From contig JAUIEP010000004.1 of NCBI GenBank assembly GCA_030428835.1, forward strand, positions 1 through 64,000: DNA of 64,000 nucleotides. Reading direction: 5' to 3'. The notes beneath the pieces are model-generated. The model was not told the DNA's origin, searched no databases, and saw nothing but the letters and a program-made list of their open reading frames with translations. Below are positions 11,522 through 35,349 of the stretch, piece after piece; the first letter of the stretch is position 1; each line of letters starts with the position of its first letter. A program made the translations under genes and the position numbers. The DNA comes from Gammaproteobacteria bacterium (GTDB lineage Bacteria > Pseudomonadota > Gammaproteobacteria > Pseudomonadales > Halieaceae).

Positions 11522-12262
11522 ATGACGCGCCCAATCCCACTCATCCTCCTGGCCGCCTGCGGCGCCTTGCTGCTCGGCTGCGGCGAGCAGGAACCCGCCG
11601 CGCCCGCGCCTGGCGAGCCCGTCGTCGTGGACACCGGGGAGCCGCTGGAGGCCGCCGAGCTCACCATCACCGAGTTCAGGGATGGTGCAAGGCGCGCGCA
11701 GGCGGAGTCCGACCTCGACCCCTGCACCCTGTTGAGCGACGAGGTCATCCGCGGGCAGTTCGAGTCGGCGGCCGGCGCGACCATCAATCGCCGCCCGTCC
11801 GACTATTCGATGCACCCGATGTGTGTGATGAGCTGGCGCAAGCCCGATGCGGACGAAATCGAAGCCCGCACCGCCGCGGCCATGAACGACTACCTGCAGC
11901 GCAAAATGCGTGGCGAGCAGGTCAAGATGCCGTCCTTCGCCACGGAGAACGAGGTGACCCTGACCCTGTTCCAGCCCCTGTTCGATGACACGGCGGCGGC
12001 GATCGCGAGCTTCGACCAGGCGATGTCGGTCCTGCAGCGCGGCGTGAAGGGCAATTCCGGCGGCGTGGAAGTCAGTTTCCAGTCCGACGTCACGCCGGTT
12101 CAGGGAGTGGGCGACAAGGCCTCGTGGGCGGTCGGCATGCGCCAGTTCAGCGTCGTGCAGGGGCGGCGTATCTACTACATCACCGTCAACACCGGCGCCC
12201 GGCCGAGTGCCGAGGAAGCCCGCGCGCTGGCGCTGGCGAAAGCGGTGGGGGAGTTGTTGTAG
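11522..12262 (+). CDS. Lipoprotein of unknown function
   Basis: A 246-residue protein whose first 20 residues form a lipoprotein signal (PLILLAACGALLLGC, lipobox LLGC with the modified Cys at 20). Gly at +2 suggests sorting to the outer membrane. After a Pro/Ala/Glu-rich linker comes a single soluble domain containing DLDPCTLLSDEVIRGQF and MHPMCVMSWRKPD, whose two cysteines could pair. It ends in PSAEEARALALAKAVGELL. The DPCTLLS...VR/I pattern recalls bacterial lipoproteins of the DUF3558 type, but that link is weak. AAGGAG stands 6 bases before the ATG. Function unknown. Confidence 0.75.
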   Translation: MTRPIPLILLAACGALLLGCGEQEPAAPAPGEPVVVDTGEPLEAAELTITEFRDGARRAQAESDLDPCTLLSDEVIRGQFESAAGATINRRPSDYSMHPMCVMSWRKPDADEIEARTAAAMNDYLQRKMRGEQVKMPSFATENEVTLTLFQPLFDDTAAAIASFDQAMSVLQRGVKGNSGGVEVSFQSDVTPVQGVGDKASWAVGMRQFSVVQGRRIYYITVNTGARPSAEEARALALAKAVGELL

Positions 12263-12268
12263 GCGCGC

Positions 12269-12631
12269 CTACTCGCTCAGCAGGCGCAGCTCTTCCTCGA
12301 GCAGGGTGATATCCATGTGCGCCTCCAGCACGGCGCGCAGGGCCGCGATATTGGCATCGTCCACGTGTTGCACCGAGAACCCGAGCCGGCCCGCCTCGAC
12401 GTGCTGCAGGTAGGCGTGCAGTTCGATTTCCCGGTCGTCTTCCAGCGCGATCATGAGGGTGAAAGGTTCGTTGTACTGGGCGTCCCACTCGGCCGGTTGG
12501 TCGGTCGCCACACCGTTGAGTGAGATATCGATCAGGTGCTGGTGCCAGACACTGCCGCCCTGGTGCACCTCCACCGGGAGGGCCAGTTCAACCCGCGTGA
12601 AGCGGCGCTTGTCGTTGTGCGCGTCGGCCAT
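12269..12631 (-). CDS. PilZ domain protein (c-di-GMP receptor)
   Basis: A 120-residue single PilZ domain. Both cyclic-di-GMP contact motifs are present: RRFTR (R9-x3-R13) and DISLNG (D35-x-S-x2-G40). The C-terminal helix is DITLLEEELRLL. The start at 12631 (MADAHNDKRRF) was chosen because the upstream in-frame extension is not PilZ-like; AGCAGGTC precedes this ATG. Its stop is close to the convergent lipoprotein gene. A GGDEF enzyme elsewhere in the window (49394-50593) could make its ligand; the downstream target is unknown. Confidence 0.85.
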   Translation of the reverse strand: MADAHNDKRRFTRVELALPVEVHQGGSVWHQHLIDISLNGVATDQPAEWDAQYNEPFTLMIALEDDREIELHAYLQHVEAGRLGFSVQHVDDANIAALRAVLEAHMDITLLEEELRLLSE

Positions 12632-12733
12632 GACCTGCTTTGTCCCCTTGCGGCACCGCTTGAATTCGTGCAGACGTGCCTTTGCTATAGCGGCAACTAT
12701 AACCCCCGCCAGCACCTATTGCGAGGGCCTTGC

Positions 12734-13567
12734 TCACGCTTTGCGCCCGGCGCGCTGGGGCCGGATAACGCCCTCCTGGGCGACCGTCGCGAACAGCTCC
12801 CCGGCACAGGTGAACGCGTTGGCGACGGACAGCGCGCGGCCATGGGAGGTGCTCGGTGACGCGCCGTGCAGCAGCAGCCAGTCGTTGATATCGACCGCGC
12901 GATGAAACCAGATCGTGTGGTTCATCGTGGCCACGAACACGTCCGCGGCCTCCCAGTCGAGGTCGTGCGGTTGCATCGCCGACTGCAGGATGGTGGCGTC
13001 CGAGAGAAAGGCGAAGCCCATCTGGTGCGCCAGTTCGCCCACCGCTACCGGTTCGCGCGGGCGCGCCCAGATCGCGGCCACCGGTTCGCGGCCGGGGTTG
13101 TTCGAGGCGCAGTCCAGTATGAGGTAGGGAAAGTCGCCCGCCGGCGAGGCGAAGGGTATGTAGTTGGCGGGATCCGCGGCGAGCGCCTCCACCGCGGGCA
13201 CGGGCGGCATGGGGAGCTGGTGGTCATAGCCCCCGGCGGCGTTCTGGAACGACAACGTGGCCAGCAACAGGTCCCGGCCCTGCTGGCTCACGCGTACGAG
13301 TCTCTGGCAGGTGTTCCTGCCGTCGCGCAGCCGGGTCACCGCCATGTCCAGCGGCGCGTTCGCATCGCCGAAGGCGACGAAGGTCGTCTGCAGGTAGTGC
13401 GCCGGCTGCGGCGCCGGCAACGTGGCCGCCGCCACACTCAGCACCTGCGCCATGAGCTGCCCGCCGTAGATGGCGCCGCCCGCCAGCGGCAGGGACAGCG
13501 CCTCGAACCGGTCCGGACCCACCTGCCGCGGGCGCAGGACGTCCTCGAGCGTGCGTTCTTCAGTCAT
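12734..13567 (-). CDS. tesB: Acyl-CoA thioesterase II
   Basis: Hydrolyses medium- and long-chain acyl-CoA to free fatty acid and CoA. The 277-residue double-hotdog protein begins with LEDVLRPRQVGPDRFEA and GGAIYGGQLMAQVLSVA. Its second half has FAFLSDATIL (catalytic Asp), NHTIWFHR, DWLLLHGASPSTSHGRAL (Thr/Ser region) and VAQEGVIRP (Gln). This fits the Asp-Thr-Gln triad of TesB. It lies 19 bases after ettA on the same strand and is probably co-transcribed with it. Confidence 0.92.
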   Translation of the reverse strand: MTEERTLEDVLRPRQVGPDRFEALSLPLAGGAIYGGQLMAQVLSVAAATLPAPQPAHYLQTTFVAFGDANAPLDMAVTRLRDGRNTCQRLVRVSQQGRDLLLATLSFQNAAGGYDHQLPMPPVPAVEALAADPANYIPFASPAGDFPYLILDCASNNPGREPVAAIWARPREPVAVGELAHQMGFAFLSDATILQSAMQPHDLDWEAADVFVATMNHTIWFHRAVDINDWLLLHGASPSTSHGRALSVANAFTCAGELFATVAQEGVIRPQRAGRKA

Positions 13568-13586
13568 CGCCAGCGCGGTCCGCGGA

Positions 13587-15251
<1,665 letters not shown>

Positions 15252-15334
15252 GCCTGATCAAGGTCCCTTCTGGCTTAAAGGCGGCGGAGTTTAGCAGAAC
15301 CGGGGCGTGTTTTGGGACGCTGGTATTTCGCCCC

Positions 15335-15352
15335 CGGAGCATCTATGCTCCG
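15335..15352. promoter_or_regulatory. Short perfect hairpin in the ettA/Anbu spacer
   Basis: CGGAGCA-TCTA-TGCTCCG forms a 7-bp palindrome 40 bases before the Anbu start and 84 bases before ettA. No T-run follows, so it is not a terminator. It could be an operator or part of the Anbu 5' leader, and there is no clear Shine-Dalgarno before the Anbu ATG. Function not shown. Confidence 0.35.
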
Positions 15353-15391
15353 CTTGCCTGTGGCGTACCACCTGTTTCGACCAGCGACTCT

Positions 15392-16165
15392 ATGACTTAC
15401 TGTATTGGCATCAAGATAGACGAGGGTCTCGTCTTCTGCTCCGACTCTCGCACCAACGCGGGGGCCGACCGCGTTTCGACCTATAGCAAGCTGCACCGGT
15501 TTTCCATCCCCGGCGACCGCCAGCTCATCATGCTGACGGCGGGCAATCTCGCGACGAGCCAGGCCATCATCGCGCGCGTGGAGCGCGACCTGAAAGAGGA
15601 CGCTGAGAACAACATCCTGAAGGCGGGTTACGTCTCGGACGTTGCCGACTATATCGGCGAGCTCGGCGTGCAGGAGGTCAAGCGCTACAGCGAAGGCGGC
15701 CCCATCGCCGGATTCGACGCGCAGGTGACCTTCATTATCGGGGGGCAGATCAAGGGCCAGAGTCCGGAACTGTACATGGTCTACCCCGAGGGCAACCACA
15801 TCACGGTGTCCGACCAGTACCCCTTCCTGCAGATCGGCGAAACCAAGTACGGCAAACCCATACTGGACCGCATCATCCGCCCCGAGACCACCCACGAGAC
15901 GGCCATGCGCTGCGCGCTGGTGTCCATGGACTCCACCATGCGCAGTAATGCGACGGTCGGGCCGCCCATCGAGCTGTTGTACTACGCCGCTGACTCGCTG
16001 CAGGCGCCCGCCCTGTACGCGAAACTGGAAGAGATCGATCCCTACCTGGTGGAACTGCGCCAGGCCTGGGACGAGAACATCCGCCAGGCTTTCGACGACC
16101 TGCCGTCGTTGTCCTCGGTATTTGCCCGCGAGAAGACCCCCCCGCGCAGGAAGAAGAAGTCGTAG
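15392..16165 (+). CDS. Anbu, proteasome-ancestor (NTN-hydrolase) peptidase
   Basis: A 257-residue member of the bacterial proteasome-like Anbu/BPH family. It starts MTYCIGIKIDEGLVFCSDSR. Loss of Met1 would expose Thr2 as the N-terminal nucleophile, and SDSRTNAGADRVSTYSKLHR supplies the conserved Asp and Lys region of proteasomal beta subunits. The C-terminal half contains IIGGQIKGQSPELYMVYPEGN. Anbu proteins form open helical or ring assemblies and are repeatedly found beside the ATP-grasp/alpha-E/transglutaminase genes that lie convergently here (16175-25364). The natural substrate is unknown. No clear Shine-Dalgarno is seen. The gene ends 9 bases from the convergent transglutaminase stop. 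Confidence 0.9.
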   Translation: MTYCIGIKIDEGLVFCSDSRTNAGADRVSTYSKLHRFSIPGDRQLIMLTAGNLATSQAIIARVERDLKEDAENNILKAGYVSDVADYIGELGVQEVKRYSEGGPIAGFDAQVTFIIGGQIKGQSPELYMVYPEGNHITVSDQYPFLQIGETKYGKPILDRIIRPETTHETAMRCALVSMDSTMRSNATVGPPIELLYYAADSLQAPALYAKLEEIDPYLVELRQAWDENIRQAFDDLPSLSSVFAREKTPPRRKKKS

Positions 16166-16174
16166 TCGCCGCGG

Positions 16175-17056
16175 CTACGGCAGCCGCTCGACGTTCACCG
16201 CGACGTCGAGGCTGTGGCCGTCGCCGCCTCCCAGTACCGAGCCCTTGAGGGGCGTCACATCGGTGTAGTCCCGGCCCCAGGCCGTGGTGATGTGCTGCTC
16301 CAGCGCCATGAGGTTATTGGTCGGGTCGAAATCCGCCCAACCCTCCGTCGGGGAATAGGCGGAGAACCAGGCGTGGCTGGCATCGGCGCCGGTCAGCTTC
16401 TCCGTCCCGGGCGGCGGCGTCGTCTCGAGGTAGCCGCTGATGTAGCGCGCCGGGAAGCCCAGCGAGCGCAGGCAGCCGATAGCCAGGTGGGCAAAGTCCT
16501 GGCAGACGCCGCGGCGATGCTCCAGCACGGTTTCCAGGGGTGTCGCCACCTCGGTGAAGCGGGGGTCATAGGTAAAGTCCGCGAATATCCGCGTGGTCAG
16601 GTCGCGCACGCAGGAGAAGAACGGCCTGTCTTCCTGGAAGGACGGCGCCGCGTACTCGGCGAGCCGGGTGTCGCGGCGCACCATGGGTGAATTCAGCAGG
16701 AACTCGCGCGCCCGCACGTTCTCCGCCACGCTGACGTCCGGCAACAGCGCGCGGACATCGGCGCAGGTCGCGCCGAAGTCCAGCGCGAGGCTCTGGCGTT
16801 GCCCCGTGACCTCCACGTCGCTCTGTGCCGTGACCTCCAGCACCGTATGCTGCGCCTGCACCGTGAAATGGTAGGTGGAGTTACCGAAATAGTCGTAGCG
16901 CTGGGTACCGACCACGGGCGCCGGGTCCACGTTGATCACAGCACTGTTGCAGCGCTGGAAGGAGGTGTTGCGCGGCAGCAGGTGCGCGAGGCTCACACAC
17001 TGGTCGACCGGCGCGGAATAGCGGTAGCGCGTGGTGTGGCTGACGCGGTAGATCAC
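16175..17056 (-). CDS. Transglutaminase-like cysteine peptidase/transferase
   Basis: A 293-residue protein with the bacterial transglutaminase N-terminal domain (VIYRVSHTTRYRYSAPV, SLAHLLPRNT) and a transglutaminase core. The catalytic triad is complete: Cys in HRRGVCQDFAH, His in GADASHAWFSAY and Asp in WADFDPTNN. The start is the GTG at 17056, whose bases overlap the stop of the upstream gene (GTGA), with AAGGAGG at the right spacing; a longer in-frame reading to 17083 is less likely. It is last in a five-gene operon. Such proteins are predicted to hydrolyse or transfer peptide/amide bonds made by neighbouring ATP-grasp ligases. Substrate unknown. Confidence 0.88.
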   Translation of the reverse strand: MIYRVSHTTRYRYSAPVDQCVSLAHLLPRNTSFQRCNSAVINVDPAPVVGTQRYDYFGNSTYHFTVQAQHTVLEVTAQSDVEVTGQRQSLALDFGATCADVRALLPDVSVAENVRAREFLLNSPMVRRDTRLAEYAAPSFQEDRPFFSCVRDLTTRIFADFTYDPRFTEVATPLETVLEHRRGVCQDFAHLAIGCLRSLGFPARYISGYLETTPPPGTEKLTGADASHAWFSAYSPTEGWADFDPTNNLMALEQHITTAWGRDYTDVTPLKGSVLGGGDGHSLDVAVNVERLP

Positions 17057-19587
17057 TCGCTGTCCTCCTTGTGCGGCGGCCACATGGGTTGCGGCCCGGA
17101 GGTGTGGTCGAAGTAACGCTCCGCGAGCCGGCCCGCGGTCTCACTCACCAGGCGCTGCACGCGCGCGAGCAACTGGTCCAGGTCGGCGCGCAGGTATTCG
17201 CCATCGCCCGCATTGGCGAGCGCGGCGAGATCCGCCAGCTGCACACTGGACATCGCTTCCAGCAGCAGGCGCTTCTCCGGCGTCAGCCGCTCTCCGGGCC
17301 TGGCGGGCAGGTCGGAGAGGTGTTCGTTCAGGCGCTCGAGCTGGTAGATCAGCGCGCGCGGGTTGGTCGGTTCCAGCAGCAGCAGGTCGAGGCCGCTGGC
17401 GGTGCTGAACGCGCCCTGGTAACGGCGCCGGTAGGTCATGAGCACTTCCGCGCTGAGCAGCGCGGTCTCCATGACAAGCGCCGCGTCGCTGCCCGGCACG
17501 ACGGGCACCCACAGCGAGCGCATCACCGAGATGGACTGCAGCGCGCGTTCGATGCGCCTGCCCACGTCCATGAAGAGCCACCCCTGCCCGCGCACCATGG
17601 ACTCCTGCGCGAGGCCGGACAGCGCGAGCAGGTGCGTCACCAGGCGCCCCAGCTCTTCCTCCGGCGCCGCGTTGAAGCCGCCGCGCAGGCGCCCGGGCAA
17701 CTTGCCCAGGCCGTCGCTGAGGTCGTTCAGGATGCGTTGCGCGTCCGACGACATGTAATCCTGTACCCGGTTGGAGGACTCCAGCATCGCGCGCAGGGAG
17801 AACACGACGCTGCCGTCGCGCTTCGCGTCCAGCACGACCGACAGCAGTTCGTCCTCGGCGCGCCGGGCCAGCACTTTCTCGTCCAGGAAACCCGGATAGG
17901 TAACGGTCAGGTGCGTCACCGCGCGCAGCAACAGGCCGCGGGTCTGCGCCTGCATGCCGTCTTCCTCGTGCAACTTGGTGAAGACGGTGCGCAGCAGGCG
18001 CAGCGCCGCCTCCGCGCGCTCCGAGTAGCGCCCGAACCAGAACAGGTTTTCCACCACCCTGCTCGGCAGTTGCGCGTCGGTGCCGGCCTGCGCGTCGGTC
18101 CGCGCCACCGGCGTGTCCTCGGGCGCGCTGCGCCGCTCCGGTTCCGACGCCAGTACCCAGGTGTCCTTGCTCAGCGAACCCAGCCGGTTGGTGATTTCGA
18201 ACACCCCCGGTTGCGAGCCGACACGCGTGAGTCCGCCCGGCATGACCGTGTACGACGATTCCCCCGCGACCGCGAAACCGCGCAGCACGGAGGGCAGTGC
18301 GGTGATCTTGCCGCCCTCCCATACCGGCGAGACGGAGGGTTGCAGGTGCGCCTGTGCCACGTACTGCTGCGGATCCGCGAGGATGTCGGCGCGCAGGGCC
18401 GACAGCTCGGCGGCGCTGAGCGTGGCGCCCGGCCGGGTGCGGAACGTCTGGTCGCGATGGGTCGTCTTGACGACGAGGGTCGGGAGGTTGTCGAGCACGT
18501 ACTGTCTGTCGTCGGCGTCGCCGCACCAGAAGGTCGCGACGCTGGGCAGGCGCAGGTCGCGGCCGAGGAAATGGCGCGCCGCCGCGGGCAGGTAGCGCGC
18601 CAGTCCGCGGTTTTCCAGGATGCCCGAGCCCGGCGGGTTGACCACCGCCACGTTGCCCAGGCGCATGACCTCCAACAGCCCCGGCACGCCCAGGCGCGAA
18701 TCGTTGCGCAACTCCACCGGGTCGCACCAGGCGTCGTCCACGCGGCGCAACAGCACGTCGATCCGCGTCAGCCCGTCCAGGGTCTTCAACCACAGATAGC
18801 CGTCGCGGACGGTGAGGTCGCTGCCCTGCACCAGTTGGTAGCCGAGGTGGTTGGCGAGGTAGAGGTGCTCGAAGTAGGTTTCGTTGTAGGCGCCCGGCGT
18901 GAGTACCGCCACCCGCGCGGCTCCCCCGTTGGGATTGAGGGCGTTGATGGTGAGGCGCAGGCTGTGGAAGTACAGCGACAGGCGGTGCACGTGGCTGTCG
19001 CGGAACAGGCTGGGAAACACGCGGCTCATCGCCATGCGGTTCTCCAGCGCGTAGCCGCTGCCGCTGGGCGTCTGCGCGCGGTCCGACATGATGACGACGT
19101 TGCCGTCAGGCAGGCGCACCATGTCCGCGGCGTACAGGATGAGCTGCTGCTCGCCGGAGAGCCTGAGATCCTGGCACTCGCGCAGGAACCCCGGGTGACT
19201 GAAAATCAGCTCGGGCGGGATGACCCCCTCGTGCAGCAGGCTGCGCGCGCCGTACAAATCGCGAAGGACCAGGTCCAGCAGTTCCGCGCGCTCGCGAATA
19301 CCCGACTCGATGTCGTTCCACTCGCGGCTGTCGATGAGCAGCGGTATGGGGTCCATCGCCCACGGCTGTGCGACGAGGCCGTGGGAGTAATCGTTGTAGG
19401 TGGCGCCGTCGTCGCGCAGGATTCGCTCGAGGGTGAGGCGGCGCTGGTTGAACTCCTCGACGCCCAGCTCCGCGACGCTGCCCAGCAGGTAGCGCCAGTG
19501 TTCGCGGGCGTCGCCGTCCGCGCCATAGGCCTCGTTGAAGGCGGTTGCGACTTCGTCGGGGATACTTGTCTGGCGCTGTCGTGGCAT
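17053..19587 (-). CDS. Fused circularly permuted ATP-grasp and alpha-E protein
   Basis: An 844-residue fusion. Residues about 1-510 match circularly permuted type-2 ATP-grasp proteins (COG2308): PWAMDPIPLLIDSREWNDIE, LRDLYGARSLLHEGVIPPEL, VLTPGAYNETYFEHLYLA and VNPPGSGILENRGL. Residues about 525-840 are an alpha-E helical domain (COG2307) opening with SRVVENLFWFGRYSERAEA. At the position where the sister protein (23916-25364) has the Gly-rich nucleotide loop KPANESGGYGMLVG, this one reads KTTHRDQTFRTRPG. ATP binding may therefore be altered or lost. It overlaps the next gene by 4 bases and follows the DUF2126 gene after 50 bases. Role unknown; an amidoligase or its scaffold is the usual prediction. 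Confidence 0.88.
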   Translation of the reverse strand: MPRQRQTSIPDEVATAFNEAYGADGDAREHWRYLLGSVAELGVEEFNQRRLTLERILRDDGATYNDYSHGLVAQPWAMDPIPLLIDSREWNDIESGIRERAELLDLVLRDLYGARSLLHEGVIPPELIFSHPGFLRECQDLRLSGEQQLILYAADMVRLPDGNVVIMSDRAQTPSGSGYALENRMAMSRVFPSLFRDSHVHRLSLYFHSLRLTINALNPNGGAARVAVLTPGAYNETYFEHLYLANHLGYQLVQGSDLTVRDGYLWLKTLDGLTRIDVLLRRVDDAWCDPVELRNDSRLGVPGLLEVMRLGNVAVVNPPGSGILENRGLARYLPAAARHFLGRDLRLPSVATFWCGDADDRQYVLDNLPTLVVKTTHRDQTFRTRPGATLSAAELSALRADILADPQQYVAQAHLQPSVSPVWEGGKITALPSVLRGFAVAGESSYTVMPGGLTRVGSQPGVFEITNRLGSLSKDTWVLASEPERRSAPEDTPVARTDAQAGTDAQLPSRVVENLFWFGRYSERAEAALRLLRTVFTKLHEEDGMQAQTRGLLLRAVTHLTVTYPGFLDEKVLARRAEDELLSVVLDAKRDGSVVFSLRAMLESSNRVQDYMSSDAQRILNDLSDGLGKLPGRLRGGFNAAPEEELGRLVTHLLALSGLAQESMVRGQGWLFMDVGRRIERALQSISVMRSLWVPVVPGSDAALVMETALLSAEVLMTYRRRYQGAFSTASGLDLLLLEPTNPRALIYQLERLNEHLSDLPARPGERLTPEKRLLLEAMSSVQLADLAALANAGDGEYLRADLDQLLARVQRLVSETAGRLAERYFDHTSGPQPMWPPHKEDSE

Positions 19588-19637
19588 CGGTGCCCGGGCT
19601 TGCTGGAGTTGTCCCGATTATTGCGGAATTGGCCCTG

Positions 19638-22600
19638 TCAGGCCAACGGGCGCCGCAGGTCCAGTGTATGCGGGTATTCGCCGGCCGGTTCCTCGGCCGG
19701 GGGCGCCATCGGCCGCGAGCCGTGCTCGTGCGGGAAGAACTCGCGGATACTGTCGTAGTCCGCCAGCGGGGGGATGACATGGGGGGTGTGGCCGTAATCC
19801 CAGAAGCGGTTCACGCGCCGTGCCTCGGCCTCGAAAGCGTTGACGGGCAGCGTGTCGTAGCTGCGCCCCCCGGGGTGGGATACGTGGTAGGTGCAGCCGC
19901 CCACCGAGCGGCCGTTCCAGGTGTCGACCAGGTCGAACACCAGCGGCGAGTGCACACCGATACGGGGGTGCAGCGCCGACGGCGGTTGCCACGCCCGGTA
20001 GCGCACGCCGGCCACGTATTCTCCCTTGCGGCCGGTGTTGCGCAGTGGCACGCGGCGGCCGTTGCAGGCGAGCACGTAGCGCTCCGGGGTCAGTCCGGTC
20101 AGCTTGACCTGCAGCCGCTCCACGGACGAGTCGACATAACGCGAGGTGCCGAAGCTGCTCACCTCCTCGCCCAGCACGTGCCAGGGTTCGATCGCCCAGC
20201 GCAGTTCCAGGTTGATATCGCCGATGTCGACATTGCCGTAGTGCGGAAAGCGGAACTCCTCGAAGGCGGCGAGCCAGTCGAGCTGGAAGGGGTAACCGTG
20301 CTCGTTGAGGTCCTCCACGACCTCGCGCAGGTCCGCCCAGACATGGTGTGGCAGCATGAAGCGGTCGTGCAGCAGCGTGCCCCAGCGCACGAGTTCACCG
20401 CGGTAGGGTTTCTTCCAGAAGCGCGCCACCAGGCAGCGCAACAGCAGCACCTGCACCAGCGCCATGCGCGAGTGCGGGGGCATTTCGAAGCCGCGGAATT
20501 CCAGCAGGCCGAGCCGGCCCGTTGCGCTGCCCGGCGCGTACAGCTTGTCGATGCAGAACTCGGAGCGGTGGGTATTGCCCGTGATATCGATCAGCAGGTT
20601 GCGCATCAGGCGGTCGACCAGCCAGGGCTGCGCCACCTCGTTCTCCGGGAACTGGCTGAAAGCGATTTCCAGCTCGTACAGCATCTCGTCGCGGCCCTCG
20701 TCCACCCGCGGCGCCTGGCTGGTCGGGCCCAGGAACAGGCCGGAAAACAGGTAGGACAGGCCCGGGTGGTGTTGCCAGTAGGTGACCAGGCTGCGCAGCA
20801 GGTCGGGGCGCCGCAGCAGCGGGCTGTCCTGGGGGGTCCTGCCACCCAGGGTGACGTGGTTGCCGCCGCCGGTACCGGAATGGCGGCCGTCGAGCATGAA
20901 CTTTTCCGTGCCGAGTCGCGCCAGTCGCGCCTCTTCGTACAGCGCCGTCGTGTTGTCGACGAGTTCGCGCCAGCTGCCCGCGGGATGGATGTTGACCTCG
21001 ATCACGCCGGGATCCGGCGTCACCAGCAGGCGCACGAGTCGCGGGTCGCGGGGCGGTTCGTAGCCCTCGATCACGACCGGCAGTTTGAGCTCGCGCGCGG
21101 TGTCCTCCACCGCGGTGATGAGGTCGATATAGTGCTCCAGGGTTTGCAGCGGCGGCAGGAACACGTGCACCTTGCCGTCGCGCGGCTCGACGCACAGCGT
21201 CGTGCGCACAATCCCCTGCGCCGCGCGCTCGTCTGGCGGGACTGCGCTCGCCGCCTGCTCGTGCACGCGCTGGCGCACCTGTGCCGCGTCGGGCAGCGGT
21301 TCCCGGGGCGCGAACGGGTCGCGTTCCGGGCGCATCGTGTCCTCTTCGCGCTCGGGTTGCAGGAGTGCGTCCAGCGGCAGGCGCAGGCCCATGGGCGAGT
21401 CGCCGGGCACCAGGTAGACGCGCTCCGCGCGCAGGCGCCACTCGCTGCTGCGCCAGTGCCTGCCCTCGTCGCGCTCCAGCGGCAGCAGATAGCCCGTCGG
21501 CTCATTGAGGCCGCGACTGAGCAGACGCGCCAGGCGCCGGCGCTCGCCGGGGTCCTTGAGATTCGCCCGCGCGGGGTCGAGGTTGTCGGGCACCTGCTGC
21601 TCCTGCCACAGGTAGTAGAGCTGGTCCTCGAAGGCCGGCGCGATGTACTCCTCCCGCACGCCCAGCGCCGCCGCCAGTCGCTGCATGAAGGCCCGGGCTG
21701 CACTCAGTTCATGACCGTAGTCCCGGTCGACGCGCGCCAGCAGGTCGGCCTGCTGCCACAACGGCTCCCCGTCCGCGCGCCAGAAGCAACCCAGCGCCCA
21801 GCGCGGGGTGGGCTCGCCCGGGTACCACTTACCCTGGCCGTAGTGCAGCAGGCCCCCGGGGGCGAAGCGTTCGCGCAGCCGCACCAGCAGATCCTTGGCC
21901 AGCTTCAGCTTGTGCTCGCCCAGCGCGTGGGTATTCCACTGGGCGGAGTCCATGTCGTCGATGGACACGAAGGTGGGTTCGCCGCCCATGGTCAGGCGCA
22001 CGTCGCCGTCTGCGAACTCCCTGTCGACCGCGTCGCCCAGTGCATTGATCGCGGCCCAGTCGTGGTCGCTGTAGGGTTTGGTGACGCGCGGGTCTTCGTG
22101 TACACGCATCACGTCGTTGACGTAGCTGAACTGGACCTCGCAGGGATCCGTGGCGCCGGTGATCGGGGCGGCGGATATCGGGCTGGGGGTGCAGGCCAGC
22201 GGGATGTGGCTCTCGCCGGCAAAGAGGCCGGAGGTCGGGTCGAGGCCCACCCAGCCCGCGCCGGGCAGGAACACCTCGCACCAGGCGTGCAGGTCAGTGA
22301 AGTCGTTTGCTGGCCCGGATGGGCCGTCCAGCGAGGTCATGTCGGGCGCGAGCTGCACGAGATACCCGGAACAGAAGCGCGCCGCGAGACCGAGGCGACG
22401 CAGGATCTGTACCAGCAGCCAGCCGGAGTCGCGGCAGGACCCGCGCGCGAGGCGCAGGGTTTCCTCGCAGCTCTGCACCCCGGGCTCCATGCGCACGTTG
22501 TACTCGATATCGCGCTCCAGGCGCTGGTTCAGCTCAACCAGGAAGTCGATGATGGGGCGCTTGTCGCGGGACACGCCGGCCAGCCACTCGTCGAGCAGCG

Positions 22601-22973
22601 GGCTGTCCTCTTCGGTCTCCAGGTACGGCCCCAGTTCCCGGCGCAGGTGGCGGTCGTACGTGAACGGGTAGTGCTCGGCGTACTCCTCCACGAAAAAATC
22701 GAACGGGTTGATCACCGTCATGTCGGTGATGATCTCGACCTCCACGCTCAGGTGGTCCTGCTTCTCGGGAAACACCAGTCGCGCGAGGAAGTTGCCGAAG
22801 GGATCCTGCTGCCAGTTGATGAAGTGCTCTTCCGGCTGGATCTTCAGCGAGTAGCTGTAGATGCGGTTGCGACAATGCGGTGCCGGGCGCAGGCGCAGCA
22901 CATGGGGGGAGATCGTTACCGCGCGGTCAAAGCGGTAGTAGGTGTTATGCCTTACGGCAACGCGAATGGCCAA
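19638..22973 (-). CDS. Large transglutaminase/DUF2126 protein
   Basis: This 1,111-residue protein has a transglutaminase N-terminal domain (RVAVRHNTYYRFDRAVTISP, FGNFLARLVFPE) and a transglutaminase core with intact Cys (LARGSCRDSGWLL), His (TDLHAWCEVF) and Asp (WVGLDPTSG). A long DUF2126 region from about residue 300 contains LTMGGEPTFVSIDDMDS, YGQGKWYPGEPTPRWALG and GGGNHVTLGG; GTGGGNHVTLGG looks like a glycine-rich active-site loop. DUF2126 has glutamine-synthetase-like features in published predictions, so the protein may couple peptide ligation with cleavage. It is the third gene of the operon, between the alpha-E gene and the fused ATP-grasp gene. Function not established. Confidence 0.85.
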   Translation of the reverse strand: MAIRVAVRHNTYYRFDRAVTISPHVLRLRPAPHCRNRIYSYSLKIQPEEHFINWQQDPFGNFLARLVFPEKQDHLSVEVEIITDMTVINPFDFFVEEYAEHYPFTYDRHLRRELGPYLETEEDSPLLDEWLAGVSRDKRPIIDFLVELNQRLERDIEYNVRMEPGVQSCEETLRLARGSCRDSGWLLVQILRRLGLAARFCSGYLVQLAPDMTSLDGPSGPANDFTDLHAWCEVFLPGAGWVGLDPTSGLFAGESHIPLACTPSPISAAPITGATDPCEVQFSYVNDVMRVHEDPRVTKPYSDHDWAAINALGDAVDREFADGDVRLTMGGEPTFVSIDDMDSAQWNTHALGEHKLKLAKDLLVRLRERFAPGGLLHYGQGKWYPGEPTPRWALGCFWRADGEPLWQQADLLARVDRDYGHELSAARAFMQRLAAALGVREEYIAPAFEDQLYYLWQEQQVPDNLDPARANLKDPGERRRLARLLSRGLNEPTGYLLPLERDEGRHWRSSEWRLRAERVYLVPGDSPMGLRLPLDALLQPEREEDTMRPERDPFAPREPLPDAAQVRQRVHEQAASAVPPDERAAQGIVRTTLCVEPRDGKVHVFLPPLQTLEHYIDLITAVEDTARELKLPVVIEGYEPPRDPRLVRLLVTPDPGVIEVNIHPAGSWRELVDNTTALYEEARLARLGTEKFMLDGRHSGTGGGNHVTLGGRTPQDSPLLRRPDLLRSLVTYWQHHPGLSYLFSGLFLGPTSQAPRVDEGRDEMLYELEIAFSQFPENEVAQPWLVDRLMRNLLIDITGNTHRSEFCIDKLYAPGSATGRLGLLEFRGFEMPPHSRMALVQVLLLRCLVARFWKKPYRGELVRWGTLLHDRFMLPHHVWADLREVVEDLNEHGYPFQLDWLAAFEEFRFPHYGNVDIGDINLELRWAIEPWHVLGEEVSSFGTSRYVDSSVERLQVKLTGLTPERYVLACNGRRVPLRNTGRKGEYVAGVRYRAWQPPSALHPRIGVHSPLVFDLVDTWNGRSVGGCTYHVSHPGGRSYDTLPVNAFEAEARRVNRFWDYGHTPHVIPPLADYDSIREFFPHEHGSRPMAPPAEEPAGEYPHTLDLRRPLA

Positions 22974-22980
22974 GTTGGGA

Positions 22981-23919
22981 CTATTCCTCGGGGGGCAGGA
23001 ACCAGCTTTCGACGATGACGTCGTGGAGTTCGTTGATGCGGAGCTGGAAACGGTCTATGAAGCGGTGCAGTTCGTCGCGGCTTGCGCCCCCGACGGGGAA
23101 ACGAGCGAGGCTGCGCCGGGCGCCTTCCAGCAAGCGCGATGCCTTCGCGCGGTTCTTCAGGGGGTGCAGCTCCCTGCGCATGCGATCCAGGCAGAAATGT
23201 ACGGAGCGCGGCAGCGTGCGGTCGCGCAGGACGAACTGGACGACCGCATCGCTCTCGATCTGCGGCCCGACCGTCCGCCGGAACGTGCCCAGGGCGGACA
23301 GCGAATCGAGCAGGCTGGCCCAGATGAGCGGATCCACGGCGGTCAGGTGTCGCTCCTCGCGCAGCAGCACGCCGGCGCCGACGTCGATCACGCGGGTGGT
23401 CATGTCGGCGCGCTCCAGCAGGTGCCCAAGCTGGATGAAACGGTACGCGTGATCGCGGCACAGCGTCGTCATGATGAGCCCCATGATCATCTGGCAGCGC
23501 GAGATCACCTGGTCGAGGAACTGCTGGCGATGGCGGCGCCCGACCGAGGACTCGGCGTAGTCGCGCGTGTACAGGTAGAGCTCGTTGACGTGTTCCCAGA
23601 CTTCCTTCGGGAGCACGTCGCGCGTGGTGCGGATATTCTCGCGCGCGGCGCCGACCGAGCTGTAGATGCTGCCGGGGCTCTCGGGGTCGGCAATGAGAAA
23701 GCCCAGCACGTTCGTCTCGTTGAAGGCGCGGTGCTTGTCGAGGAAGATCTGGTCGGCATCCTGGATGCGCACCAGGATATCCCAGCCCGGCGCCGCCGAT
23801 TTCGGAATGTCCATGGCCAGGTGGGCGTAGGAACGCACCAGGCGCGCCGTGTCCTCGGCGCGTTCGAGGTAGCGCGCGCTCCAGTACAGTCGTTCGGCGA
23901 CCCGCGAAAGCATTGTCAT
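22981..23919 (-). CDS. Alpha-E domain protein (COG2307)
   Basis: A 312-residue all-helical protein with the diagnostic start MTMLSRVAERLYWSARYLER and then AEDTARLVRSYAHLAMD. Later helices include REERHLTAVDPLIWASLLDS and RRELHPLKNRAKASRLLEG. The ATG at 23919 overlaps the upstream ATP-grasp stop (ATGA), fixing the start; the frame is open further upstream but only as a shadow of that gene. Alpha-E proteins have no known enzyme activity and almost always accompany COG2308 ATP-grasp proteins, with which they may form a complex. A second copy of this domain is fused in the 17053-19587 gene. Confidence 0.88.
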   Translation of the reverse strand: MTMLSRVAERLYWSARYLERAEDTARLVRSYAHLAMDIPKSAAPGWDILVRIQDADQIFLDKHRAFNETNVLGFLIADPESPGSIYSSVGAARENIRTTRDVLPKEVWEHVNELYLYTRDYAESSVGRRHRQQFLDQVISRCQMIMGLIMTTLCRDHAYRFIQLGHLLERADMTTRVIDVGAGVLLREERHLTAVDPLIWASLLDSLSALGTFRRTVGPQIESDAVVQFVLRDRTLPRSVHFCLDRMRRELHPLKNRAKASRLLEGARRSLARFPVGGASRDELHRFIDRFQLRINELHDVIVESWFLPPEE

Positions 23920-25364
23920 TTGGACGCCTCCACGATCCAGGTGTCCTTGCTGCCGCCGCCCTGGGACGAGTTCACGACGAGCGAACCCTTGACCATGGCC
24001 ACGCGGGTGAGGCCGCCCGGCGTCACCCAGGTGTCGCGTCCGCTCAGGATAAACGGTCGCAGGTCGAGGTGGCGCGGTTCCACACTGTTGTTGATGTAGG
24101 TCGGCGCGGTGGACAGGGACAGGGTGGGCTGGGCGATATAGTTGCGCGGGTTCTTCTCGATGAGCCGCGCAAATTCCTGGCGCTTCTTCTGCGTGGAATG
24201 TGGCCCGACCAGCATGCCGTAGCCGCCGGATTCGTTCGCGGGCTTCACAACCAGTTTGTCCAGGTTGTTCAGCACGTAATCGCGCTCCTTCGGGCGCATG
24301 CACAGGTAGGTCTTGACGCTGGCGATCGCCGGCTCCTCCTTGAGGTAGTAGCGGATCATGTCGGGTACGAAGGCGTAGACCACCTTGTCATCGGCGACAC
24401 CGCTGCCCGGCGCGTTGGCGATGGCCACGTTGCCCGCCTTCCAGGCCCGCATCAGGCCGGGTACCCCCAGCACCGAGTCCTCGTTGAAGACCTCGGGGTC
24501 GATAAACAGGTCATCGACCCGGCGGTAGATGACATCGACGCGCTCAGGGCCGTCCACCGTGCGCATGTACACGCAATCGTCGCCGTCGACGAACAGGTCC
24601 GGGCCCTCCACCAGTTCGGCGCCCATGCCGCGGGCGAGGAAGGAGTGCTCGAAATAGGCGGAGTTATAGATGCCGGGGGTGAGTACCACGATGCAGGGCC
24701 GCCGCTGCGAGCGCGGCGACAGCGACGACAGCGCGCCGTACAGGCGGGTGGGGTAGTCATCCACGGGGCGGATATCGTAGTGCTCGAACAGCTCGGGCAG
24801 CACGCGCTTGGTGATCTCGCGGTTCTCGAGCATGTAGGACACGCCGGAAGGTACGCGCAGGTTGTCCTCCAGCACATAGAACTTGCCGTCCTTGTCGCGA
24901 ATCAGGTCGGAACCGCAGATGTGGGCCCACACGCCGAAGCGCGGCGAGACCCCCTTGCACTGCTCGCGGTAGTTGCCGGACTCCAGGATCGTCTCGGCGG
25001 GGACAATGCCATCCTTGAGGATTTTCTGGCGGTTGTAGATGTCGTCGATGAAGGCGTTCAGCGCCTTGCAGCGTTGCGCCAGGCCCTTGCTGACCTGCTT
25101 CCATTCCCGGCCCGAGATCACCCGCGGGATGATATCGAACGGCCAGGAACGGTCGATGTTCTTGCCCTCACTGTAGATTGTGAAGGTGATGCCCATGTCC
25201 TTGATGGCCAGTTCCGCCTCGGTGCGCCGGGACTCGACCTCCTCGCGCGTCAATCCGCTCAGGAGGTTGACGGCACGCCGCGCCGCCACTCGTGGCTGGC
25301 CCTTGGCAGTTATCAGTTCGTCGAAGAAGTCTTTGCTCTGGTAGCTCTTCCAGCTTCTGGGCAT
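23916..25364 (-). CDS. Circularly permuted type-2 ATP-grasp protein (COG2308)
   Basis: This 482-residue protein starts MPRSWKSYQSKDFFDELITA. It has the family hallmarks: KNIDRSWPFDIIPRVISGRE, RFGVWAHICGSDLIRDKDGK, VLEDNLRVPSGVSYMLENRE, VLTPGIYNSAYFEHSFLARG and the glycine-rich nucleotide loop LVVKPANESGGYGMLVG, followed by RDTWVTPGGLTRVAMVKGSL. These enzymes are predicted ATP-dependent amide/peptide ligases with unknown substrates. It heads a five-gene operon (ATP-grasp, alpha-E, transglutaminase/DUF2126, fused ATP-grasp/alpha-E, transglutaminase) with 4-base overlaps between genes one and two and between genes four and five. The start at 25364 was chosen because the upstream extension is not conserved-looking. 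Confidence 0.9.
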   Translation of the reverse strand: MPRSWKSYQSKDFFDELITAKGQPRVAARRAVNLLSGLTREEVESRRTEAELAIKDMGITFTIYSEGKNIDRSWPFDIIPRVISGREWKQVSKGLAQRCKALNAFIDDIYNRQKILKDGIVPAETILESGNYREQCKGVSPRFGVWAHICGSDLIRDKDGKFYVLEDNLRVPSGVSYMLENREITKRVLPELFEHYDIRPVDDYPTRLYGALSSLSPRSQRRPCIVVLTPGIYNSAYFEHSFLARGMGAELVEGPDLFVDGDDCVYMRTVDGPERVDVIYRRVDDLFIDPEVFNEDSVLGVPGLMRAWKAGNVAIANAPGSGVADDKVVYAFVPDMIRYYLKEEPAIASVKTYLCMRPKERDYVLNNLDKLVVKPANESGGYGMLVGPHSTQKKRQEFARLIEKNPRNYIAQPTLSLSTAPTYINNSVEPRHLDLRPFILSGRDTWVTPGGLTRVAMVKGSLVVNSSQGGGSKDTWIVEASK

Positions 25365-25394
25365 CGGTTCGCATCGGTCTGAACAGGTTGGCAG

Positions 25395-25400
25395 AGTATA
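25395..25400 (-). promoter_or_regulatory. Candidate -10 box of the ATP-grasp/alpha-E operon
   Basis: On the minus strand TATACT stands about 30 bases before the ATP-grasp start, in the divergent spacer shared with glyA. No good -35 is seen at the expected spacing, so an activator may be needed. Confidence 0.4.
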
Positions 25401-25511
25401 GCGCAGCGCCCCGGAAATTGATGCAGCACGGGACCGGGATCGCTGTATCGCGCGCGCACCAACATGAGGCATGCGGCGATCACCCTCTTTATGCGCGCAG
25501 CTGCTTTGCGC

Positions 25512-25517
25512 TAGAAT
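25512..25517 (+). promoter_or_regulatory. Candidate -10 box for glyA
   Basis: TAGAAT lies 28 bases before the glyA start, within CTAGAATGCCGCGCTTTCAC. A very similar string (CTAGAATGGCCGCCCTTTCAC) precedes ribA at 33448, which supports a shared promoter type. The -35 region is unclear. Confidence 0.4.
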
Positions 25518-25544
25518 GCCGCGCTTTCACGCGGGGGACGCAAC

Positions 25545-26807
25545 GTGTTTGACAAGACCATGACCATCGAAGATTTCGACCCGGCCGTCGCCGCCGCCAT
25601 CGGCGAGGAGGAGCGTCGCCAGGAAGAGCATATCGAGCTCATCGCCTCGGAGAACTACACGAGCCCCCGCGTCATGCAGGCGCAGGGCACCGTGCTGACG
25701 AACAAGTACGCCGAGGGCTATCCGGGCAAGCGTTACTACGGCGGCTGCGAGTACGTCGACAAGGCGGAGGAGCTGGCCATCGAGCGCGCCAAGGCGCTGT
25801 TCGGCGCGGACTACGCCAACGTGCAGCCCCACTCGGGCTCCCAGGCGAACTCCGCGGTGTACATGGCGCTCTGTTCCCCGGGCGACACGGTGCTGGGCAT
25901 GAGCCTGGCCGACGGCGGTCACCTGACCCACGGTGCAGCGCCGAACTTCTCCGGCAAGATGTACAACGCCATCCAGTATGGACTGAACAAGGACACGGGC
26001 GAGGTCGACTACGGCCAGGTCGAGGCGCTGGCCGAGGAGCACAAGCCGAAGATGATCGTCGCCGGCTTTTCCGCCTATTCGCAGATCATGGACTGGGGCC
26101 GCTTCCGCGACATCGCCGACAAGGTCGGCGCCTACCTGATGGTCGACATGGCGCACGTGGCCGGTCTCGTGGCAGCGGGCGTCTACCCGAACCCGGTGCC
26201 CTTCGCCGATGTGGTCACCACCACCACGCACAAGACCCTGCGCGGCCCGCGCGGCGGCCTGATCCTCGCGCGCGAGAACGAGGAACTGCAGAAGAAATTC
26301 AACTCCGCGGTGTTCCCGGGCGGGCAGGGCGGTCCGCTGATGCACGTGATTGCCGCCAAGGCGGTTTCGTTCATGGAGGCCCAGAGCCCGGAATTTGTCG
26401 ACTACCAGAAGCAGGTCGTGAAGAACGCCAAGGCCATGGCGGCGACGTTTATCGAGCGCGGCATCAGGATCGTCTCCGGCGGCACCGAGAACCACCTCAT
26501 GCTGGTGGACCTCATCGGCAAGCCCTACACGGGCAAGGACGCCGACGCGGCCCTCGGCGCGGCCAACATCACGGTGAACAAGAACGCCGTGCCGGGCGAC
26601 CCCCGCTCCCCGTTCATCACGTCCGGCCTGCGTGTGGGCACCCCCGCCATTACCACCCGCGGCTTCGGCGAGGCGGAGACCGTGGAGTTGACGGGCTGGA
26701 TGTGCGATGTGCTCGAGTCCCTCGAGAACGACACCTCCGCGCAGGTCATCGAGCAGGTGAAGGCCAGGGTCCTCGACATCTGCGCCCGTTTCCCGGTCTA
26801 CAAATAG
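25545..26807 (+). CDS. glyA: Serine hydroxymethyltransferase
   Basis: A PLP enzyme converting serine and tetrahydrofolate to glycine and methylene-tetrahydrofolate, the main source of one-carbon units. It has 420 residues (E. coli 417). [38 protein letters not shown] and the PLP lysine motif [14 protein letters not shown] (Lys near residue 230) are intact. The GTG start at 25545 follows a GGGGGAC ribosome-binding site at good spacing; an ATG five codons later is the alternative. It is divergent from the ATP-grasp operon. Confidence 0.96.
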
Positions 26808-26834
26808 GGCCCGGATCGCGTCGCAAATCCCGCG

Positions 26835-26885
26835 CGTCGTCCCCGCGTGGGCGGTGGTCCGGCACACCGGGACCCAGTGCCTTCG
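26835..26885. repeat. Dispersed repeat, single copy (family of 50645-50967)
   Basis: CGTCGTCCCCGCGTGGGCGG at 26835-26854, running on to GGTCCGGCACACCGGGACCC, aligns with two copies 24 kb away, one in each orientation (50645-50699 and 50912-50967). They share the CCCCGCG-n2-GGCGG-n-GGTCCG and CGGG-n-CC-n-AGTG blocks. It lies in the 187-bp glyA-nrdR spacer. The remainder of that spacer holds only a weak CCTTAC/GTAAGG hairpin and the nrdR upstream region. Confidence 0.6.
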
Positions 26886-26994
26886 GAGCCTTGCGCGGCC
26901 CCCCTGGCGCGTTCCATTCCTTACCCCAAATGAGTAAGGACTCTCCCCAAGAAAAATGTTAGTGTTCAGCAACTTAGCTAACTGAGGCCAGTCC

Positions 26995-27459
26995 ATGCAC
27001 TGCCCTTTCTGCTCCGCCGAAGACACCAAGGTCATCGACTCCCGGCTCGTGGCCGAGGGCGACCAGGTACGCCGCCGGCGGGAGTGCCTGAGCTGCGCGG
27101 AGCGCTTTACCACCTACGAGGTGGCGGAACTAGTCATGCCGCGGGTGATCAAGCAGAACGGCAGTCGCGAGCCCTTCAACGAGGAGAAGCTGCGCGCCGG
27201 CTTCCAGCGGGCGCTCGAGAAGCGGCCGGTGCCCATTGAGGATGTCGAGGCGGCGATCAACCAGATCAAGCACCGGCTGCGCGCCACCGGGGAACGCGAG
27301 ATCCGGTCGCTGGAGCTGGGCGAGCTGGTCATGGACGAGCTGCGGCAGCTCGACCAGGTGGCCTACGTGCGGTTCGCCTCGGTGTACCGCGACTTCCAGG
27401 ACATCGCGGAGTTCCGCGACGAGATCGCGCGCCTGGAGAAGGACTCCGTCGCGAACTGA
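26995..27459 (+). CDS. nrdR: Transcriptional repressor NrdR
   Basis: A nucleotide-sensing repressor of ribonucleotide reductase genes. In its 154 residues (E. coli 149) the zinc ribbon cysteines are C3, C6, C31 and C34 ([18 protein letters not shown]). An ATP-cone domain follows ([31 protein letters not shown]). The final [19 protein letters not shown] is typical. It begins the nrdR-rib-nusB gene order common in gammaproteobacteria. No obvious 16-base NrdR box was found next to it. Confidence 0.96.
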
Positions 27460-27474
27460 CGCGACCGCGCGACC

Positions 27475-28584
27475 ATGGCCTCTCCTCTCGACACCCGCAT
27501 GATGGCCCGGGCGCTGCAGTTGGCCCGCGAGGGCCGTTTCTGGGCCATGCCTAATCCCCACGTCGGCTGCGTGCTGGCGCGCGGTGCGACGATCATCGGC
27601 GAGGGCTTCACGCAACCGGCCGGCGGCAACCACGCGGAAATCGAGGCGCTGGCGGCCGCGGGCGATGCCGCCGGCGCCACCGCCTACGTCACGCTCGAAC
27701 CCTGCAGCCACCACGGCAAGACCGGCCCCTGCACCGATGCGCTGGTTGCCGCGGGTGTCAGTCGCGTCGTGGTGGCGGTCGAGGACCCCAACCCCCACGT
27801 GGGCGGTAGCGGCATTGCGCGTTTGCGCGAGCGCGGCGTCGAGGTGGAGGTCGGGCTGCTGGCGGCGGAGGCCGCGGCGGTCATACCCGGCTTCCTGGCG
27901 CGCATGCGCCGCGGCCGCGGACGGGTGCGGGCGAAGCTCGCGATGTCACTGGACGGGCGCACCGCCATGGCCTCCGGCGAGAGCCAGTGGATCACCGGGC
28001 CCGCGGCGCGGGCCGACGTGCAGCGCCTGCGCGCCATGAGCTGTGCCGTGGTGACCGGCGTGGGTACGGTGCTGGCCGACGACTGCGCCCTGACGGTGCG
28101 GGCGGGCGAGCTGGGCCTGGAACCCGCCCTGGCGGCCCGGGCGGCGACGCGGCAGCCCCTGCGAGTGGTGCTCGACAGCCGCCTGCGCACGCCGCCCGGT
28201 GCGAAGCTGCTGGACGCCGCCGCGCCGACCCTGGTCTGCCACAGCGAGGGCGCGCATGTACCCGGGCACCTGGCGGGTGTCGAGACCCTGGCCCTCGGCG
28301 CTGGGGCCGGCGGCCTCGACCTCGACGCCCTGATGGACGCCCTCGCGGCACGGCAGGCCAACGAAATTCTGGTAGAATCTGGCCCCCGCCTGGCCGGGGC
28401 ATTGCTGGCGGCGGGCCTTGTCGACGAACTCATCGTCTATATGGCGCCGGCGCTGCTGGGCTCCACGGCGCGGCCGCTGCTCGAGCTGCCGCTGGCGGCC
28501 ATGGCGGACAAGGTATCCCTCGACATCAAGGACCTGCGCCAGGTGGGCGACGACTGGCGTATCACCGCCATCCCCGGGAAGTAG
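27475..28584 (+). CDS. ribD: Bifunctional riboflavin deaminase/reductase RibD
   Basis: Carries out the second and third steps from GTP in riboflavin synthesis: deamination of the pyrimidine and NADPH-dependent reduction of the ribose. The 369 residues match E. coli (367). The deaminase zinc site is HAE (53-55) with PCSHHGKTGPC (Cys77 and Cys86). The reductase domain begins near residue 145 (RVRAKLAMSLDGRTAMASGE) and includes GVGTVLADDCALTVR and LVESGPRLAGALLAAGLVDE. It lies 15 bases after nrdR and 5 bases before ribE. Confidence 0.95.
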   Translation: MASPLDTRMMARALQLAREGRFWAMPNPHVGCVLARGATIIGEGFTQPAGGNHAEIEALAAAGDAAGATAYVTLEPCSHHGKTGPCTDALVAAGVSRVVVAVEDPNPHVGGSGIARLRERGVEVEVGLLAAEAAAVIPGFLARMRRGRGRVRAKLAMSLDGRTAMASGESQWITGPAARADVQRLRAMSCAVVTGVGTVLADDCALTVRAGELGLEPALAARAATRQPLRVVLDSRLRTPPGAKLLDAAAPTLVCHSEGAHVPGHLAGVETLALGAGAGGLDLDALMDALAARQANEILVESGPRLAGALLAAGLVDELIVYMAPALLGSTARPLLELPLAAMADKVSLDIKDLRQVGDDWRITAIPGK

Positions 28585-28589
28585 AAGTT

Positions 28590-29246: not shown

Positions 29247-29262
29247 CGGCGCGGGCGCAACG

Positions 29263-35237: not shown

Positions 35238-35349
35238 AGTCTGTTGCGGGCTGTGATCGGGGCAGCGTCATCATAGCCTGTTCGCGCTGCCAATGCATTG
35301 GTCCAGCCGTTCGCGGGCCGCTCGCCCGGGGCGGGGCGCAGGCGCGATT

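Follow-up and report, generated by a model that had tools for sequence, protein, structure and literature searches.

Introduction

Iyer, Abhiman, Burroughs and Aravind reportedly predicted in 2009 a peptide-tagging system composed of an ATP-grasp ligase, a glutamine-synthetase-like ligase, an N-terminal nucleophile (NTN) hydrolase and the alpha-E domain. The same protein families are encoded in one block, spanning exactly positions 15392-25364, of a 64,000-nucleotide stretch (hereafter the window) of contig JAUIEP010000004.1, from a gammaproteobacterium of the Halieaceae. In this block the gene for Anbu, a proteasome relative whose function has been open since its naming in 2008, lies on the plus strand and faces a five-gene operon, g1 to g5, on the minus strand. 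The window differs from the predicted system in holding both modules (the ATP-grasp/alpha-E pair and the genes around DUF2126) and Anbu in one block, and in having no sigma-54 motif and no Peptidase_Mx match in its genome. The genome as searched (5.23 Mb, 319 contigs) contains two matches to alpha-E, one to DUF2126 and one to Anbu, every one inside the block, so that a single deletion would take them all out.

Among described relatives, the Anbu operons of Pseudomonas putida (PP_2685-2688) and Yersinia bercovieri encode Anbu, a transglutaminase, alpha-E and an ATP-grasp protein, as does the window, but are, in the excerpts of the reports consulted, a four-gene short form without DUF2126 or the fusion gene; that of P. 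putida is induced by nitrogen limitation. The circularly permuted ATP-grasp fold is also common to glutathionylspermidine synthetase, Escherichia coli YgiC (7uk8) and the M. flagellatus protein 3n6x, none of which, to our knowledge, occurs in such a cluster. Genes I35_5080-83 of Burkholderia cenocepacia encode DUF404/407 (ATP-grasp), DUF403 (alpha-E), a transglutaminase and a large transglutaminase, like those of the window, but they belong to the NtrC regulon, and the excerpted report lists no Anbu in the cluster (PMC5491218; all papers given by PMC number are cited from excerpts).

The original prediction for this block, made from the letters of the window, was of a peptide- or amide-bond system without an established product, in agreement with what Iyer et al. 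are said to have proposed. It also called the system undescribed, which overstates the case: the set had already been predicted, the 2009 paper being cited in PMC5666114 and PMC6376114, and crystal structures of Anbu exist. The locus is a member of a system already predicted in print and structurally half known.

In our reading the block is a single, complete version of the predicted amide-conjugation system of ATP-grasp, alpha-E, transglutaminase and Anbu; an amide conjugate would be made at the expense of ATP and cut by Anbu, and in many relatives the system would be tied to nitrogen limitation. We put the probability of this reading at about 0.6. What our data show directly is which genes are present, which active sites are retained or lost, co-occurrence, promoter motifs and module exchange. 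To the earlier descriptions we add a quantified partner of Anbu (alpha-E with a live ATP-grasp protein), a sigma-54 signal that runs across gamma- and beta-proteobacterial lineages and is missing in the window's own, and an exchange between a metallopeptidase and DUF2126.

Active sites of the encoded proteins

The operon combines one live ATP-grasp protein (g1) with one conserved pseudo-ligase (g4), because g1 keeps the catalytic motifs that proteins of the g4 type have lost. Residues 33-478 of the standalone g1 (23916-25364, minus strand; PF14403, E = 4e-168) align with the putative glutathionylspermidine synthase 3n6x (E = 9.7e-161), and the g1 type retains nine of nine catalytic positions in 22 of 22 standalone proteins (our second set, window included); judged by sequence, g1 is the active circularly permuted ATP-grasp protein of the Iyer system. 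In g4 (17053-19587, minus strand), which is fused to an alpha-E domain, the ATP/metal site is gone, with the EDN, DDK, Gly-rich and RHxDxR motifs all lost. Two residues, the EDN Asn and the leading Asp of DDK, are absent from 20/20 fused proteins of our first set and kept in 32/32 standalone ones (window included); among the 80 fused proteins of the second set, again including the window's, 53 keep none of the nine catalytic positions, 24 keep one and 3 keep two. An inactive ATP-grasp protein paired with alpha-E is said to be a feature of the Iyer system, and g4 and its 79 relatives, none with more than two positions left, have that character. We reject, on the same counts, that both ATP-grasp proteins are active, so that the original prediction of two circularly permuted ATP-grasp proteins, one of them fused, stands as to family and fold but not as to a second working ligase. 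The Pfam text on alpha-E, following Iyer et al., reportedly speaks of one active and one inactive ATP-grasp protein already, and we claim no priority for the pairing.

The ligase fold of g4 is nonetheless kept, since its AlphaFold model (predicted local distance difference test, pLDDT, 91.1; predicted template-modelling score, pTM, 0.90) superimposes on 3n6x with a target TM-score of 0.88 in Foldseek. Nearly all of the best 50 of 434 Foldseek matches of g4 are ATP-grasp proteins, among them glutathione, glutathionylspermidine and trypanothione synthetases, YgiC and Cp1B as neighbours of the ATP-grasp half; the matches come without aligned ranges, so the alpha-E part is not separable. Because these neighbours are amide-bond-forming ligases, g1 with alpha-E is most likely an amide synthetase. 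In published work, the Y. bercovieri ATP-grasp protein frees phosphate from ATP (PMC6376114), the ATP-grasp step of fungal Cp1B, in the E-64 pathway, couples an epoxy acid to an amino acid, and a peptide-spermidine ligase activity of YgiC appears in the title of a reference (both PMC12568646). Alpha-E itself (PF04168) is present twice, as the original prediction had it and as in the Iyer system, once in g4 and once as the standalone g2 (22981-23919, minus strand; E = 3.9e-82 for the open frame holding it); a search by sequence gave it no solved relative in the PDB, two matches at E 0.5 being taken as noise.

Two transglutaminases with intact triads had been proposed, and the Cys, His and Asp are indeed invariant in 25/25 aligned sequences for each, window included, with the proviso that the rows for the transglutaminase-DUF2126 protein may include two small transglutaminases. 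The smaller enzyme, g5 (16175-17056, minus strand; GTG start), consists of Bact_transglu_N and Transglut_core and carries the triad C185/H228/D244. The larger, g3 (19638-22973, minus strand), was undersold: its TG_N and TG_core domains (C180/H229/D245) are fused to DUF2126 (1353 bits), a putative glutamine-synthetase-like amidoligase. This corresponds to the transglutaminase fused to a glutamine-synthetase-like (COOH-NH2) ligase of the Iyer system in its transglutaminase half and in the presence of the DUF2126 family; in Foldseek the g3 model (pLDDT 77.9) matched a protein of transglutaminase type (3isr, 3e-11) and, weakly, several glutamine synthetases (best E 0.058).

Anbu (15392-16165, plus strand; PF00227, E = 4.4e-10; N-terminus MTYCIG), a proteasome-type NTN hydrolase, has the Thr after the start Met, the Asp17, the Lys32/33 and the likeness to solved structures by which Anbu proteins are recognized. 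The predicted Thr2 nucleophile (mature Thr1) is kept, with D18 and K33, in 30/30 aligned sequences, window included, and the solved relatives are 5loy (3.6e-76; titled a designed Anbu protein), 5nyw (3.9e-61) and 5lox (6.1e-61). For solved Anbu relatives a split-ring, or lock-washer, assembly has been described (PMC5666114, PMC6376114).

The coordinates and gene identities of the original prediction agree with Pfam and with our reading of the sequence. Its argument for a complex, from 4-base overlaps, fared worse: only two of four junctions overlap (g1/g2, ATGA, 23919-23916; g4/g5, GTGA, 17056-17053), g2 and g3 being separated by 7 bp, with TTG as the start of g3, and g3 and g4 by 50 bp. Given also that co-expression pull-downs with the Y. 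bercovieri proteins showed no specific interaction in the excerpted report (PMC6376114), we reject this argument as weak. Nine base pairs separate the ends of the convergent Anbu and g5 genes.

Co-occurrence across genomes

Co-occurrence was examined in a wide sample of 299 genomes of the phylum and a close sample of 37 relatives, the genomes within each being related to one another. In the wide sample, where alpha-E was found in 172 genomes, Anbu in 121 and DUF2126 in 96, alpha-E accompanied Anbu in 119/121 genomes and occurred in 53/178 others (Fisher 4e-38); it was also present in all 96 DUF2126 genomes. The figures for DUF2126 itself were 63/121 Anbu genomes vs 33/178 others (1.7e-9). Among the alpha-E matches listed, the nearest lies no more than 12 kb upstream on the same strand at 94 or more of the 122 Anbu loci, and at least 100/122 have an alpha-E gene within 12 kb; DUF2126 is within that distance of just 14. 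The steady partner of Anbu is alpha-E, with the standalone ATP-grasp protein, and not the DUF2126 module; standalone ATP-grasp and alpha-E genes were together in 34/34 cases across 40 regions read. A neighbourhood comparison settled on beforehand had asked whether Anbu travels with the operon at all: it does so, most steadily with respect to alpha-E, and the lack of co-occurrence that would have told against a link is not what we see. Among the 37 relatives, alpha-E is present in 17 and Anbu in 16, all of them within the 17.

In the second module the pseudo-ligase is fused to alpha-E in 80/80 named loci, and the DUF2126, fusion and small transglutaminase genes are consecutive in 54 of them; of the other 26, 20 have no DUF2126 in the stretch examined, 4 have it elsewhere and 2 lack the transglutaminase. 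The loci are not independent (the ATP-grasp proteins of L135 and L168 are identical, and L153 and L154 are nearly alike).

Two loci of Ectothiorhodospira shaposhnikovii (L182 and L186) carry genes for ATP-grasp, alpha-E, the fusion, a transglutaminase and Anbu, with no DUF2126 in the stretch examined, and may represent an intermediate arrangement. A record titled as a Klebsiella pneumoniae metagenome-assembled genome (L236) has both the transglutaminase-DUF2126 module and the ATP-grasp/alpha-E pair; this label may reflect an error of binning or naming.

Promoters and nitrogen regulation

Upstream regions of 300 bp were scanned for a sigma-54 motif with GG and GC fixed and at most two mismatches, first-order Markov resamplings serving as shuffles here and in the NtrC scan. 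The motif precedes the ATP-grasp gene in 25/52 loci; shuffles gave 2.35 and six other spacings 0-4, and inside that gene the motif occurs in 0/52. Upstream counts for other genes were 19/77 for transglutaminase-DUF2126 (shuffles 2.5), 1/34 for Anbu (1.25) and 3/97 for the internal fusion gene (3.5); the first of these is softer, because the motif also lies inside that gene in 22/77. Wrong-spacing controls upstream of other genes reached 7/54 (alpha-E) and 13/97 (small transglutaminase). For roughly half of the ATP-grasp upstream regions sampled, from gamma- and beta-proteobacteria alike, the system thus looks sigma-54 driven. Carriers include Haliea, Halioglobus, Zhongshania, Methylobacter and Marinomonas for the ATP-grasp gene and Pseudomonas and Zoogloea for transglutaminase-DUF2126; the two E. 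shaposhnikovii strains differ, L182 having the motif and L186 not. NtrC sites lie at the right spacing from the motif, with at most one mismatch, in 13/44 cases against 2.5 in shuffles, a signal that is merely suggestive because 8/44 also match at a wrong spacing of 8 and many matches come from closely related Pseudomonas.

Published expression data fit a link to nitrogen. In an ntrC mutant of B. cenocepacia, I35_5080-83 change by log2 -8.2, -9.4, -9.4 and -6.0 (PMC5491218); in P. putida, nitrate over ammonium gives log2 4.44 for PP_2685 and 3.99 for PP_2688 (PMC8050072), a nitrogen-limited column lists 11.1, 6.6 and 7.1 for PP2685-2687 (PMC3325844), and NtrB/NtrC are credited with PP_2685-2688 (PMC7801951). 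In marine metagenomes a correlation with urea domains has been noted (PMC3597751). Searches of open-licence papers turned up nitrogen control in single species and no title or abstract on a sigma-54 motif across lineages. The motifs suggest under which growth condition the product might be sought.

The window's own lineage is different. With GG and GC fixed, no sigma-54 motif lies upstream of g1 or Anbu, and its closest relatives, L119 and L121, likewise have none upstream of the ATP-grasp gene; the three share instead a TGCGCTATACT or TGCGCTACACT stretch upstream of the g1-type gene. Control of the window's operon by sigma-54 and NtrC was considered and rejected, the window as a whole containing 36 sigma-54-like matches vs 30.9 expected and 140 NtrC-like matches vs 133. 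Upstream of g1, a TATACT hexamer (25395-25400, minus strand), with TATACT in L121 and TACACT in L119 at a like place, resembles a -10 element; this is a suggestion only, because it is not among the hits of a generic sigma-70 scan covering 15200-25600.

The same site in relatives

The gene set and orientation of the window recur in genome G013 (locus L119) and, with about 2.5 kb extra beside Anbu, in G023 (L120). In G008 (L121), of the same genus, the same site again lies between ribD-nrdR-glyA and the ettA-, tesB-like and radA genes, and it holds an ATP-grasp gene, alpha-E and a convergent Anbu without the DUF2126 module; between alpha-E and Anbu lies a Zn-ribbon and Peptidase_Mx gene (PF10005, PF15887; HExGH motif). 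That the six genes of the window are adjacent by chance, as the opposite orientation of Anbu and the usual distance of DUF2126 modules from it might suggest, is disfavoured by these three comparisons, among them a convergent Anbu kept at one glyA-ettA locus beside a different module, and is highly improbable.

At this one syntenic locus, then, a zinc-ribbon/HExxH metallopeptidase stands in G008 in place of the window's DUF2126 module. The 17 alpha-E genomes among the 37 relatives divide into 7 with Peptidase_Mx alone, 9 with DUF2126 alone, 1 with both on separate contigs and none with neither (Fisher 0.0004, a descriptive value since the genomes are related). The exclusion is local, because in the wide sample, where Peptidase_Mx accompanies alpha-E in 61/62 genomes, some of them resting on fragments alone (G195, G206, G254), it co-occurs positively with DUF2126 (49/62). 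At least 17 of 65 Peptidase_Mx matches adjoin cluster genes, counting those judged to be on the same contig and excluding 10 fragments from the 75 matches listed. A related domain name, DUF2248, has been predicted to be a zincin-like metalloprotease (PMC3650047).

Pieces of the cluster have been exchanged, because the trees disagree: in the ATP-grasp tree the window, which falls among Halieaceae rows (e.g., Haliea, Halioglobus), joins L119 and L121 (support 100/99), with L120 elsewhere beside Halioglobus and Haliea, and in the Anbu tree the window pairs with L119, and L120 with L121. A bolder version of our reading, which we offer tentatively and with the odds against it, is that the true core consists of ATP-grasp, alpha-E and Anbu making and unmaking one amide conjugate, that the DUF2126/pseudo-ligase/transglutaminase module and Peptidase_Mx are alternative processing modules swapping at a fixed site beside this core, and that the window's lineage has become unhooked from nitrogen control. 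This exchange at a single locus is a natural experiment for comparing how the two modules act on one conjugate.

The otherwise compact cluster is interrupted by an insertion in G023, where positions 5650-8223 of L120, separating Anbu from the operon, hold a cytochrome P450 gene and a short open reading frame that is TetR-like by eye.

Discussion

How such an amide-conjugation system might work can be sketched from its parts. The sole active ATP-grasp protein, g1, would activate a carboxylate as an acyl phosphate and couple it to an amine, regularly partnered by the alpha-E protein g2; g3 would contribute a second, possibly glutamine-synthetase-like ligase and a transglutaminase able to transfer or remove glutamine-type amides; g5 would be a second transglutaminase-type hydrolase or transferase; and Anbu would cleave the resulting amide, in removal or recycling. 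Because g4 keeps the fold and an alpha-E domain of its own but has lost its catalytic site, its likeliest role is as a scaffold or regulator of the ligases. The direction of the reaction, the substrates and who works with whom are what we infer. For the conjugate itself our first candidate is an amide joining a polyamine to a peptide or an amino acid, as suggested by the relation of the ATP-grasp protein to enzymes of the glutathionylspermidine-synthetase type, though we think this particular guess doubtful.

Several observations weigh against this reading. DUF2126 seldom lies near Anbu, and its glutamine-synthetase fold was recovered only weakly; among the alpha-E matches listed, 18/122 Anbu loci are near neither DUF2126 nor alpha-E; the published pull-downs, as excerpted, found no complex (PMC6376114); and the sigma-54 motif is missing in the window. 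Nor are the expression data uniform: PP_2685 (Anbu) is nearly unchanged (1.12) in the first data column of one study, and PP_2686-2688 are still induced in its third, which we read, from an inferred column order, as the rpoN mutant and which speaks against strict sigma-54 dependence (PMC7801951). Tested Anbu proteins, finally, were without peptidase activity on aminomethylcoumarin (AMC) substrates (PMC6376114), and Fuchs et al. prefer protein degradation to peptide synthesis for Anbu (PMC5666114).

If the product were instead a small metabolite, such as an amino-acid or polyamine amide, the cluster would never modify proteins, and Anbu and the transglutaminases would be maturation or recycling hydrolases. 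The closest folds, those of glutathione, glutathionylspermidine and trypanothione synthetases and Cp1B, are small-molecule ligases and favour this alternative, but the split ring described for Anbu would be unusual in a metabolite enzyme, and the intergenic gaps read hold no transporter or precursor gene (the flanks being partly annotated and small precursor peptides not systematically searched); we consider it somewhat unlikely.

Less probable still is that Anbu is a stand-alone degradative protease for protein turnover, for example under nitrogen limitation, with which the ligase genes share only regulation. Fuchs et al. argue for degradation from ring-shaped assembly and inhibitor binding (PMC5666114), 2/121 Anbu genomes lack alpha-E, and 5/29 Anbu regions read have no adjacent ATP-grasp/alpha-E pair, four of these coming from same-genus genomes whose Anbu proteins form a separate branch of the Anbu tree. 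Against it stand the near-constant company of alpha-E and its position upstream on the same strand, the missing peptidase activity noted above and the lack of a known partner unfoldase; we judge it quite unlikely and retain the amide-conjugation system as the preferred reading.

Neighbouring features

Upstream of g1, and divergent from it, lie glyA (25545-26807), nrdR and ribD; beyond Anbu, at 13587-15251, is a gene for an ABC transporter-type ATPase, for which ettA is our own label. No RNA element matched at the gathering threshold in 12000-30000, and no tRNA was found across the window. A lambda-P-like replication protein gene (PF06992, E = 2e-11) and, adjoining it, one with three stretches of DnaT type (PF17948, E = 8.5e-72) occupy 8212-9919 (minus strand), where they are flanked by an RNase R/SpoU methylase pair and by a RadA-like gene. 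Genes for an ABC-2 permease, a Wzt-type ATPase, an FrhB-like protein and a polysaccharide pyruvyl transferase at 35293-41220 (plus strand) resemble a surface polysaccharide cluster.

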